A stretch of 64,000 bases of DNA, from the NCBI GenBank assembly GCA_030062745.1, contig CP099848.1, positions 11,429,501 through 11,493,500 on the forward strand, in the 5' to 3' direction. A program made the translations under genes and the position numbers. This document shows positions 18,701-46,400 of this stretch, piece by piece (within the stretch, counting starts at the first letter, position 1; each line of letters starts with the position of its first letter). The DNA is from Capitulum mitella. Its lineage: Eukaryota > Arthropoda > Thecostraca > Pollicipedomorpha > Pollicipedidae. The notes under the pieces were generated by a model, which saw only the letters and a program-made list of their open reading frames with translations, had not been told where the DNA came from and did no database searches.

Positions 18701-21700
18701 CGTCTTGGTACGCAGAAGGCCCTGCCGAGTACAGGCAGCGGCCGTTCAGGTGGGCTTAGTTGCCCGGCGTCAGCGAGCGAGGCGAGATGGGAGAAGAGCG
18801 CTGCTGAGGACTTCCCTCTCTTCTGACGGCACCAAAACACTCTGACGATGGGGTTCTGAGCTGTCCCGAAGGGCTTGCATCAAAATTCCGTAGTGTTATG
18901 AAGAGAACTTACGTATTCAGAGCGCCATCCTTGAGCAGCAAATTTAAATTCACACCACCGTGGGAAGTGTTTGGGTCTTTACGGGGCGTTGACATCAAGT
19001 GAACCTTGGAAAAGGTCTCAAATGAACCACCAGAGCACTGATCCGTCGTTAAGACGTAGCTGGGGCTATTAAAATGTCATCTAAACATAGTTTTAATATG
19101 TCTGGCGTAGAGGAGAGCAGATAGTGCGGCAGCTTTGTCCCATTTCCGTTTTTAGGCTCCAGGTTGTTAACTGCGCTTTCCCACATTGGAAACAAATCTC
19201 AGCTTACGTTTTAGCACAAAGCAGCTCCTGCCACATATAAGCCACGAAACGCTGCGACAAATCACCAAGAGCTCGCCAACAAGCTCCCCCATACAATTCA
19301 CCATCAAGTACGTCCTGCCTGCACAACTCACCATGAAGTAGCTCTTGTCTTGAACCATGCGGGACCTGCCGCTGCCGGCCGTCTTCATGCCGGACAGACC
19401 CTGCTGCGTGATGGGCCGGCTCATCACTTTGATCTTCTCCATGGCGCCGGTGACGGGCCGGCCTGAGCCCATGCGGGACATGGAGGCGCGCGAGCCGGGC
19501 ACCTGGGTCACGGGCCGGAACCCGGTGCCGGGCGGCCCGGCAAGCGCGCCGGTCGGCGGCCGACCGGAGGTACCCGGCCGGCCCTCCTGCGGGGTTACAC
19601 GGCCCGGTCATTCAGACGGAGAGCAGGAGCCCGGCCCTCCTGCGGGGTTACACGGCCCGGTCATTCAGACACACACGGCCCGGTCACACAAACACACACG
19701 GCCCGGTCACTCGGACGGAGAGCAGGAGCTCGGTGTCCTGCCGGGTCTCACGGTCCGGTCACTCGGACGGAGAGCAGGAGCTCGGCATCCTGCCGGGTCA
19801 CACGGCCCATTCACTCAGACACACACGATCCGGTCGCTCAGACGGAGAACTGGAGCCCGGCCGTGGAGCGGAATCGCCGCGCAGAGGAGAGCGTGGAACC
19901 CTGCAGACACACAGGCTCATCGATCAGGTCGTTCGCTGAGGCCTTTAATGAGGCTGCCGGATGCAGCTTAGCTGCACGGTCGCTCCGACACCAATGCTTA
20001 ACACGTACCACATGCAATCGAGTTCGGACAGAGCACCTGATGTGCTAACGAATCATTGCTACCGAGACAAATGTCACACAAAAGGTTCTTGCGCTTTCCT
20101 GGCTGCCTACGAACTGCGCTGAGTGGCCTAAGCACAGCTCGCCGATGAAAGGCTGCAATGCTAGAAGTGCACAGCGGCGAAACATCGGCGCTGACCGCGT
20201 CCAGTTTCCTGGCTCACCAATGACGCCAGCGAGCCCATCCCGGCGTGCTGGCGACGGCGCGCACTCACCCACTGGGTATTCTCGCTGAACGGCCTGCCGT
20301 CGGGCCCGACGGCGCCGGAGACGGGCCGCGAGACGCCCGTCATCGGCCTCGACGAGCCGGCGGAGTGACTCTGGAACGAGACCGGGCGCCGGGGTCGGGA
20401 GGGGCCGGGCATCAGCCCAGCGGCCGCAGTTGGTCGCATACCCACACTCGGTCGGCCGCCGCCGCCCACTGCCGCCGCTGAACCAGCTGGCCGCGCCCAA
20501 CGCGCTCGCCCGCAGTCATTCGGCATGCATACCGCGGATGGTTGTCACGTCGACGCGGGGAAGCGTTCAGGGGGGTTGGTTGGTTGGGAATCACGCAAGA
20601 GAGAGAGAGAGAGAGTGATAGAGAGGGAAGACACAGGCCGGGCATTGATCCGGACAGGCCGGTCGAAGAAGAGGAGGGAGGAAATCGAGGTCTCATTAGA
20701 GCGCTGCCAATGTTCACGACGGCTGGCTCGTCTGGCCGCGTCAACGCCGACGACGCGGTCTGGCGCTGACGTTCGAGCGAAAGAGGGGTCTCGGAGGAGC
20801 ATCAGAGGTCTGACATTTCATCTGGCTGGCTCGTCGTTACAGAATGAAGAGAGACTAACGTGAAGCGGGTTTCAACCGAAATGGCCTGACCTGACCTGAA
20901 TTGACTTGCATCCCTGTCGTCGTGTGGGAGATCAAGTCTTGGGCTGGCTGACCTGATCAGGACTGACCCGACCTGACCTGACCCGGACTGACCTGCATCC
21001 CTGTGGCCGGCCGGGAGACGCCGGTCATGGGCCGTGACCCGCCTAGGGAGCGGCTCTCGCCTGCGGCCGTGACCGGCCGACTGTAGCCTCCTCCCGTCTG
21101 CGGCCGGTCAAAGTCCGAGGCCGGCCTCACAGCCGAGGTGGACGGTCGCCCGGCCAGGTCGCCGCCGCCGACGAACCCCGACGCAGGCCTGCCGGGTCAG
21201 TTACGGGCTGTTGTTATCCGCGCGCCGCCGGCGCCGACCATTAAGCAGAACGGAGACAGGCGAAAAACTAATGAGTTGTATACAGTGCAGCTAAGGTGAC
21301 AGACGTTTAAAAATAAATCACAATCGTACGAAAATGCATGAAGTCTGCCTGTCCAAAAAAGGTGTTTGGAGTCGGCCATTTTTTACTCCTCCCCAATTTG
21401 AAATTAATGAGGGCGGGAGCCACACGGGTACGGCGCAGCTGCGCGTCTGGCCAATCAACAGAGGGGGCTGTGGAGGGGGGAGGAAGGGAAGGGGAGGGGC
21501 GTCTGACCTGGAGCCACCAGCCGTTTTCGGTCTGTCGTACAGACTGGAGGCGGGCCGGGAGCCGAACGGAGCCGGCTCGTCGGCCAGCGGCTCCTCCCAC
21601 TGGTGTGCGGCCTCCTGGTCCGCCCAGGGCGCCGGCTGGCTGGTGCCCGGCCGGCCCGACATGGTCAGCGGACGGTCCTGCGGCGCCGTGACACTGCCGT

Positions 21701-43499: not shown

Positions 43500-46400
43500 T
43501 TACCCCGGCCGGACGTCCTCGGTCTGTCCGCCGGCGTACGGGTGGTCGGCGCTGGACTCGGCGGGCGCCGCCGACGGCGTCAGTCGCCGCCGGTACAGCC
43601 GACCTGGTCGACACAGGGGAGCGTCACCACACAGTCCAACAACAGTCACCACACAGCACACACCAGTCACCACACAGCCGACCTGGTCGACACAGGAGAG
43701 CATCACCACACAGTCCAACAGCATCACCACATGGTGAGCCAATAGCCAACACGACCAAAACAACAATAAGCACAAATCCAACACAACAATCGCCATCCGG
43801 CTGGCCTTTCCCACACAAAAACGGCGGGCATGACGCGACTAAAACTGGTCCATTCATGACCCCGACACAGCACACGCCCACAGGCCGGAGCCCAACACGG
43901 CCGAGGTCAATCTGGAGTGCCCGCTGCACAGCACCTGTGCGGCCCCGGCGCCGTATGCGCGTGTGCCGCTCCAGAAGGGCGGCCGTCTCGGAGAGCATCT
44001 GGGTGGCCTCGCTCTCGGTGGCCTGCTCCAGCTTGGCGTGCAGCCGGAACAGGTTGGTCTTCACCAGCTCCTTGACATCGGAGGCGGGGGTGCCGCCGCT
44101 ACCGCCGCCCTCCGCAGGCCGCAGTGTCCTGGGAAGTCGGCCACGCCACGGTTACTCGCCCAGCCACGAGACGTCCTCCCGAAACAATCGGAAATATAAG
44201 TGGAGGAAAGCGTGGCCAATTCACTAATATAGATCTGATCGTTAAAAGCGCATAATGCATCTGCACAAAACAGCAGAAGGGCAGACACTGGCATAACCAT
44301 GGAGCGAAAAGCACAAAAGAGGAATACCTAGACATCTGTAACAAATGCCCCACAAATAAGTCAAAGCCAAATGGCCTTAGCAGTACCTTAACAAAAACAC
44401 TGCCACTTTTCTCCAGATCAGAGGCACCACAGTGCAGCCCGGCACGACAGCGGCTCGCGGTACTGACCTGAGTTTCCGTCTCGCCGGCCCGCCTGTGCGG
44501 ATGAGCCGGCCTCTGGGCGGTGGCTGCGGCTCGTCCACAGACGGCGCCATCAGACGCTCGACCTGGGAAACAGCGGCGCCGTCAGCAGGAGCCGGACAGA
44601 CTCGGCAGGTGGCCGAGGACTGCAGCTGACCGGCGGACACGACACTCACGTAGTTCAACAGCTGCACGTCTTGCGGCCAGGATTAGACCACGACCAGAGC
44701 CACGAGGCACGACTCGGCGTTTCAAGACAATGCCATTCGCTGGATCTGACGGCACTTAGGTCCGCCTGAACCTATTTTGGTATTTCATTGCCAGGACCTG
44801 TGTCAGCAGCAGTGCCCCTATCTTCCCGAGTTTCTCGTTCGTTGGCAGCAGTCCTCACCTGTCTAGAGTTCATCGGGCATATGTCAGCGGTCCCCACCTG
44901 TCTGAGCCTCCCTGCCGGTGGCTGCCGTCCTCACCTGTTTGAGTCTCTCTGCAGCCGGCAGCAGTTCCGGCCCGGCGTCCCTGTTCCGGCTCCAGCTCCG
45001 GCTCCGGCTCGGGCGCCGGCTCCGCGGCGGCGGCGGCGGCGGCGGTGGAACGCCTCTTGCGCTGTCTCGGCCGACTGTCTCTGATGGCACGCTCCAGCAG
45101 CACCAGTTGGTGGTGCGCTGGAATCGTAAACACTGTCTTAACACAACGCAACACAATACAGGCAAACCACCCCACACGCAGCAAATGCACCCCCTTACAC
45201 GAAGACTGGTAAAACAAGACCGCACGGGTAAACAATGGAAACAGGAAAAGCAAGAACAAAAAACAGGAGCACGCGCAATCACGCATGCGCGCATGGATGT
45301 ACATCCACAATCATGTCTCCACACACACAGGCTCGACCACACAACCAGAACAAAAAAAAAACGAAATATCATCCTTAACTGTATTTCCGGACAGTCTCCC
45401 CTTCCATCTCCTCCAAAGGCAGCAGCTGTACATTCGCTTAGCTCCTCCTTACCTCCTATCACAGTGATAATTTTGTTTCTGTGACCCGAGGGTGAATACC
45501 AAAGCGTGCCTTTGTGTTATGTGTCTATGCCAATATTACGAGCAACGTTTACATGGCGTGTATTCAGACTTATCTGTACACTTACAACTTGAGCTGGCAC
45601 TTCAGAAACAAAACAGTGATGCTCCAAACTGGTGGCAGATAGTGTGCGAATGATTGATAATGTGTCAAAACTTTGGGAATCCTTCATCAGCACTACCATG
45701 GTGGCAGAGTTGGATGCGTGCGTGTGTATGGCACGATCTGCCTTTTTTGGTTATTTGACAACAAAAGATTTGATTTCACTCGGTCCAAAAACAATGAGAA
45801 GAAAATGTCCTGAGATCAGGAAACTTTGGGAAGTGTTCAAAATTCCGACCATGCCTTCCTTCCAGTGGCAAGCGCCGTACCTTTGGCCAGCTCGCGTTCG
45901 GAGGAGAGAGGCGAGTTGTCCGGCTGCTGGCACGTGTGCAGCAGGGAGAAGCGCGCCTTCACCGAGCCGTCGGCGTTCGTCTTGGTGCGGATGTACGCCG
46001 GACAGTAGTTGCCCGTCTTCTTCCAGCGCTGGGGCCGGTCCGTGCCGGACGGCTGGCCCGACCTGAGACAGGGACGGGGTGACGACACAATCCCGTCCGC
46101 CCAGGCACCTCGGACCAGGTGCAGCCGTGCGGACAAACACAGGGTAACCGGATAGGCTCGACGTCGGAGGTCAGAAATACCGTCGCAGCTCGGTATCCCA
46201 CGCCACAGCCCACGCTATCCATAGTCAGTCTTGGGACCAAAAGTCAGATTGTGTCAGAATACACACTCCCCTCCCATGTCAGAAACAATCACTGCAGTAG
46301 GCAAATTCGACATCTGCAGCTCAATTCCGCCACATAGCACGCCTGACTGCAACTGCATTCTCGGCGTTCACGGCCGCAGCCGGCGGCGGGGGCTCCTGCC

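Follow-up and report, generated by a model that had tools for sequence, protein, structure and literature searches.

Mirage-like minisatellites copy splice sites at exon edges in Capitulum mitella, at close to the background rate of its introns

In amphioxus, minisatellite-like arrays that duplicate an intron-exon boundary, whether at the acceptor or at the donor, are known as "mirages" and are described for Adh3, the globin genes BflGb6 and BflGb9, TnC, and PGBD5 (PMC3087553; PMC3902484). According to the parts of these reports that we draw on, the repeat units are of 10-160 bp, many of the copies contain the AG or the GT of the splice site, splicing is normal, and a role in intron gain has been proposed. 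Here we describe similar arrays from a 64,000-nucleotide stretch of contig 10 (CP099848.1, positions 11,429,501 to 11,493,500) of the Capitulum mitella assembly (GCA_030062745.1; 477 Mb in 16 contigs), and we will refer to the whole of this stretch as the window. As in the amphioxus mirages so far as those reports describe them, the tandem units span the boundary and include exon sequence, on the acceptor side and on the donor side. This is the case at 6 of 35 junctions in the window and also at myosin loci elsewhere in the genome (L042/L056, L050, and L027). Unlike the amphioxus cases, these arrays come from another phylum (if the organism is a barnacle, as we infer), and the barnacle junctions were compared with an intron background and were found to be near it.

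There are two other systems to compare. The human gene IFI6 (6-16) contains a minisatellite with multiple splice donors, which are said to be used; as at our donors, the array repeats the donor at the end of an exon. Introns have also been reported to be gained by tandem duplications that copy the splice signals, including the branch site, the tract, and the AG (PMC4974935). That process, as reported there, makes a new intron, whereas the exon-intron structure of the barnacle genes appears to be unchanged. Our literature search found no report of mirage-like arrays in arthropods or barnacles, which is weak evidence because most subscription journals lay outside the search, and a literature search for minisatellites with recursive splicing gave nothing on the subject.

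To define a copy of a junction, we took the 24 nucleotides centered on the junction and their best ungapped match within 500 nt, and we counted a match at 18 or more of the 24 positions as a copy. The strength of the copies and of the true splice sites was compared by a matrix score. The window set has 18 acceptors and 17 donors, and the placement of arrays was assessed in 17 introns that span 15.8 kb and hold 14 arrays. Copies are present at four acceptors and two donors, always on the intron side, and these are exactly the six splice sites that an earlier note on this DNA had named as copied, so all six are real. On the exon side, there was no copy at any acceptor (0/18) or donor (0/17) in the window. 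The match of the best copies takes in 8-31 nt of exon and 11-87 nt of intron, and the weakest include just 2-4 nt of exon. Acceptor and donor boundaries have both been duplicated.

The six junctions are in IFT74, a BTB-TLDc gene, and a putative zinc-finger gene (coordinates are in the table). At the acceptor of IFT74 exon 6, the best copy is 53 nt upstream (22/24), the match spans 31 nt of intron and 9 nt of exon, and there is a second copy of the AG at 203 nt. Upstream of BTB-TLDc exon 8, the AG is copied at 64, 130, and 194 nt, each time with 19-25 nt of exon, and the copy at 130 nt matches at 20/24. Upstream of BTB-TLDc exon 3, there are AG|GT copies at 94 nt (18/24) and at 140 nt, and the AG has been lost in the copy at 46 nt. 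For exon 9 of the putative zinc-finger gene, GACCAG|GTCGGCTGT is copied 79 nt upstream (21/24, with 41 nt of intron and 9 nt of exon). Among the donors, IFT74 exon 4 has a partial copy at +15 and a junction copy at +87 (20/24) that is broken (CAA|GTCAAT, with a score of 2.8 versus 12.0 for the true donor). The donor of exon 6 of the putative zinc-finger gene is copied at +37 (19/24) and at +76 as ACAG|GTG[AG]GG, in an array for which Tandem Repeats Finder gave no call. Most copies retain the AG or the GT, and several score near the true site: the best copy equals the true site at IFT74 exon 6 and at the zinc-finger exon 6 donor (12.2 for all four), and the scores of the best copy and the true site are 10.4 and 11.2 for BTB-TLDc exon 8, 9.1 and 10.9 for BTB-TLDc exon 3, and 8.8 and 10.1 for the putative zinc-finger exon 9. 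At the four copied acceptors, none of the offsets of the nine listed copies (46 to 203 nt) is a multiple of 3.

Splice-site copying recurs in other genes, and two myosin cases are clear. The first is a myosin gene on contig 9 (L042/L056), where an array of nine units, which are all of 57 bp except for one that is 7 nt shorter, leads into the exon RDAELASQFDLRPADHYSYL (RDAELASQF). Every unit carries CTCTGA[AC]C together with about 27 nt of exon. The ACAG acceptor is intact in seven of the nine units (the true one and six upstream) and has been lost in two, and upstream of the shortened unit, the gene's reading frame runs into stop codons in the units. The second is a contig 2 myosin gene (L050), where an array of about 400 bp repeats the exon end GGATACCCGTCCAG with its donor, CCAG|GTGGGC. 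Our script set this donor inside the donor's own array, and we located the true donor by eye. A myosin exon on contig 6 (L027) has a diverged copy of its donor 86 nt past the exon.

The earlier note went further and suggested that the duplication process favors intron-exon junctions. Outside the window, we found no support for this. We examined 104 junctions of myosin and kinesin genes, and copies were present at 0 of 53 acceptors and at 2 of 51 donors (2/104 overall), as compared to a background of 3.2% for non-exon positions in the same DNA, or 2.6% if known junction arrays are left out. Random DNA (16 stretches of 10 kb) gave a copy rate of 4.6%, and exons gave 1.9%. Arrays themselves gave a similar picture around 67 outside exons: they cover 3.1% of the positions overall, and in bins of 0-20, 20-50, and 50-100 nt, they cover 0.2, 1.5, and 2.5% upstream of acceptors and 2.9, 4.4, and 5.4% downstream of donors. 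Thus, the window's bias towards the acceptor side does not hold in this sample, in which the donor side is, if anything, slightly richer in arrays. When the window and the outside junctions are pooled, there are 8 copies among 139 junctions, versus 6.1 expected, or 4.6 expected if junction arrays are left out of the background (Poisson p = 0.10). Judging by this sample, strong general targeting of junctions is unlikely, and there may be a mild enrichment, twofold or so at most.

Several results weigh against a purely unselective process. In the window, three of the 14 arrays overlap acceptors, versus 0.34 expected if arrays are placed at random in the 17 introns (p = 0.003), and six are within 100 nt of acceptors, versus 1.97 expected (p = 0.007); the placement tests that favor acceptors have p values of 0.003-0.008. 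Junction copies (6/35) were compared to 7.9% of intron positions (p = 0.056), or to 5.5% without the six junction arrays (p = 0.011). The window also differs from the outside sample (Fisher p = 0.003); the outside sample is small and is biased towards conserved and compact genes. If we add the L056 exon, which was found later, then the pooled count is 9 versus 4.65 expected (p = 0.048, post hoc). All of the window's p values are post hoc as well, because the region was chosen for its pattern, and the junction-copy test is less striking because intron positions in the window are often inside arrays. We consider the window's excess of junction copies to be modest. Eleven of the 14 arrays are closer to an acceptor than to a donor, and donors had no excess in the window (1 overlapping array versus 0.33 expected and 1 within 100 nt versus 1.95).

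The sequence of the copied junctions also weighs on this side. CAG|GT is present at 6 of 8 copied junctions and at 26 of 131 others (p = 0.002; 7 of 8 if the L050 donor is located by eye), and the difference persists if acceptors (p = 0.034) and donors (p = 0.038) are tested separately. This suggests that the duplication process may not be fully blind to sequence, although the motif test was post hoc and the window donor at 24965, once set at the correct base, has a best match of 16/24, which is not a copy, so it is a further CAG|GT junction that is not copied. CAGGT occurs at 7.2 per kb in arrays, versus 2.2 per kb in the random stretches, and in 10 of 69 array units, where 6.4 would be expected from the flanking sequence and 3.7 from shuffled units. 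CTGAC, which resembles a branch site, occurs in 18 of the 69 units versus 6.1 expected. We considered whether most of the arrays are 3' splice modules and dropped this idea, as CTGAC was not clearly biased towards the sense strand (7 versus 4 of 39 arrays of known strand). Separately, GTGAC was found in 8 sense units and 0 antisense units among the 39 intron arrays of known strand.

We propose that these are mirage-type minisatellites that probably came from unselective tandem duplication and that are tolerated across an exon edge since the copy falls in the intron. Local tandem duplication, perhaps by replication slippage or unequal exchange, would act across introns regardless of where the splice sites are, and in a genome that is rich in minisatellites, a short segment that happens to straddle an exon edge would be duplicated along with the rest. 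The intact edge would stay beside the exon and the extra edge would go to the intron side. The mRNA would be unchanged while the exon-proximal site is in use, and the array would be free to grow by more rounds of duplication. Blind duplication predicts copies on the intron side at about the background rate for introns, which is what we saw. We infer the duplication mechanism, the neutrality of the arrays, and the use of the exon-proximal site. Local duplication is supported by the two window arrays that we searched for across the genome, each of which matches its own locus alone, so that these two most likely arose in place. It is also supported by the substitutions and small indels that distinguish the units of the arrays. 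An origin from dispersed repeats is ruled out for these two. Because the offsets of the acceptor copies in the window are not multiples of 3, and because of the stop codons in L042, frequent use of the copies should be harmful, which argues for the exon-proximal site being the one that is used, as judged from the sequence.

How do other explanations fare? If junctions, or the CAGG(T) that is common to junctions and minisatellite units, seeded arrays at a higher rate than the rest of the intron does, this could explain the acceptor-side excess in the window and the abundance of CAGGT at copied junctions and in arrays. We think that this is unlikely, given the lack of an excess at the 104 outside junctions, the near absence of arrays just upstream of outside acceptors, and the small surplus of CAGGT units over the flanks. 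The copies may be spare splice sites, which would fit their sequence. That they are functional as such, whether as alternative sites, as recursive sites (AG|GT with a zero-length exon), or as decoys that tune expression, seems improbable to us. The AG or GT is kept in most copies, often with a good score, some of the acceptor copies are CAG|GT, and the copy at 130 nt from BTB-TLDc exon 8 would score 10.5 as a donor, which is inside the range of true donors. But the offsets would shift the reading frame in the window, the L042 units that precede the shortened one would introduce stops, the AG|GT copies at BTB-TLDc exon 3 score 4.9 as donors, which is close to the lowest scores of true donors, and some copies have lost the AG. 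We give a similarly low chance to a related idea, in which CAG|GT junctions are the preferred seeds or survivors: a misused AG|GT acceptor copy would regenerate a donor and would be removed by recursive splicing of a zero-length exon, so that the arrays would be self-silencing and would accumulate. If this were true, then the CAG|GT arrays would be a standing stock of ready 3' splice modules for the evolution of introns and exons.

It is very improbable that the arrays are the remains of new introns that were made by tandem duplication of AGGT segments. This is a known route to intron gain, at least as described (PMC4974935), and it was proposed for the mirages in the amphioxus report (PMC3087553), and most of the copied junctions are CAG|GT. 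However, an intron gained in this way should have similar junctions at its two ends, and for the 17 window introns, the donor and acceptor of the same intron were identical at a mean of 9.0 of 24 positions (highest 14), versus 8.5 (highest 15) for donors and acceptors of other introns. Since an intron's own junctions are no more alike than others, nothing here resembles a new intron made by duplication. Least credible of all is that the arrays are false tandem expansions in the assembly. Arrays are prone to assembly errors, and the amphioxus authors describe one such case (PMC3087553), but the units differ from each other by substitutions and small indels, and the spliced reading frames are open.

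The table lists the six copied junctions, the arrays that had been described as stopping at acceptors, and the gene models. The latter description was overstated, as these four sets of arrays end 33-301 nt short of the exon, and one of the exons (IFT74 exon 8, at 16882) is outside the range that the earlier note itself covered (19587..44955). For BTB-TLDc exon 5, a run on the other strand put the gap at 269 nt.

Table. Copied junctions, nearby arrays, and gene models in the window.
Feature	Position in window	Strand	Description
IFT74 exon 6 acceptor (19586)	19571..19820	-	array with a unit of about 52 bp
IFT74 exon 4 donor (20992)	20905..20995	-	repeats; true donor GCAG|GTCAGT
BTB-TLDc exon 8 acceptor (28649)	28625..28851	-	64-bp array
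BTB-TLDc exon 3 acceptor (37299)	37295..37501	-	46-bp array
Putative zinc-finger exon 9 acceptor (43603)	43603..43731	-	repeats upstream
Putative zinc-finger exon 6 donor (44934)	44858..44947	-	three tandem donor junctions
Arrays before IFT74 exon 3 (21677)	21775..21954	-	arrays with units of 21 and 24 bp, 97-171 nt upstream
Arrays in IFT74 intron 7	17180..18000	-	arrays with units of 52-56 bp; gap of 297 nt to exon 8 (16882)
Array before BTB-TLDc exon 5 (32709)	33011..33126	-	15-31-bp array, 301 nt upstream
Array before BTB-TLDc exon 6 (32096)	32130..32216	-	22-bp array, end 33 nt upstream, no junction copy
BTB-BACK-TLDc gene	28478..38448	-	8 coding exons
IFT74, 5' part	16780..25076	-	exons 1-8; gene runs on to lower coordinates

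The spliced BTB-TLDc gene has an open frame with Pfam matches to BTB, BACK, and TLDc. For IFT74, exons 3-7 matched no Pfam family, and exons 3-7 together with part of exon 8 matched solved chains of IFT74 (E = 7e-23 and 4.9e-7). The label "zinc finger" was not confirmed: no Pfam family was found in the two pieces that we scanned, one of which had exon 6 in a frame that does not join exons 7-9. When joined correctly, exons 6-9 of this gene form one open frame. No tRNA or Rfam family was found in the window.

The outside junctions came from part of the Pfam hits to myosin and kinesin genes, and the exon edges were set by the splice matrix near the ends of the hits, without transcripts. For myosin, 84 of 86 hits were used, of which 46 were inside the sampled DNA. 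For kinesin, 21 of 129 hits were used, and these are from four compact genes, so the sample is biased against long arrays. Hits with internal stops and sites with scores of 2 or below were left out of the copy-rate test, and sites with scores of 3 or below or near the end of a locus were left out of the scan for the best 24-mer match. The random sample (16 stretches of 10 kb) was used solely as background for arrays, motifs, and the copy rate. We rejected it as an unbiased test of exons, because at a low threshold, ab initio exon calls barely outnumbered those in the reversed sequence (65 versus 64); there were 23 versus 12 calls at a threshold of 40 and 15 versus 4 at 50.

We also note some other features of these loci. 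The coding sequence of IFT74 exon 2 is a minisatellite too (22975-23927, minus strand), with about 11 copies of a 63-bp unit that encodes 21 residues (GSPMDRPMTGAGGNRPISGYP-like) in the N-terminal tail. IFT74 intron 2 (22974, minus strand) and BTB-TLDc intron 4 (33667, minus strand) appear to be GC-AG introns with the donor CAG|GCGAGT. On the plus strand, an exon at 53984-54416 and on resembles an EF-hand protein, which we take to be of the Rab11-FIP3/4 kind. At 3331-3733, a perfect (GA)59 tract gives way to degenerate repeats of the AGAC type. Contig 10 begins with CCTAA repeats, that is, with a TTAGG telomere; of three other contig starts, one is mostly N, and none has a CCTAA-type array at its tip. 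Among the myosin loci, L023 has a 30-bp array of 21 copies (278-907) that ends 91 nt upstream of an exon's acceptor. Similar myosin exon hits (about 377-441 of the profile) are clustered on contigs 14, 15, and 16, and these are presumably like the alternative exons of arthropod muscle myosin. The clusters on these three contigs may fit the whole-genome duplication that has been reported for barnacles, as described in PMC11331182.

Overall, the barnacle case suggests that the amphioxus "mirage" extends beyond lancelets: if the organism is a barnacle, then this is a known type of structure in a new phylum. The comparison to background suggests that no special targeting mechanism is needed, and it tempers an attractive but weak claim that junctions are targeted. 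With their copied splice sites, such arrays offer a natural setting in which to study how the spliceosome chooses among nearly identical sites, and they supply material from which new introns and exons can be made.

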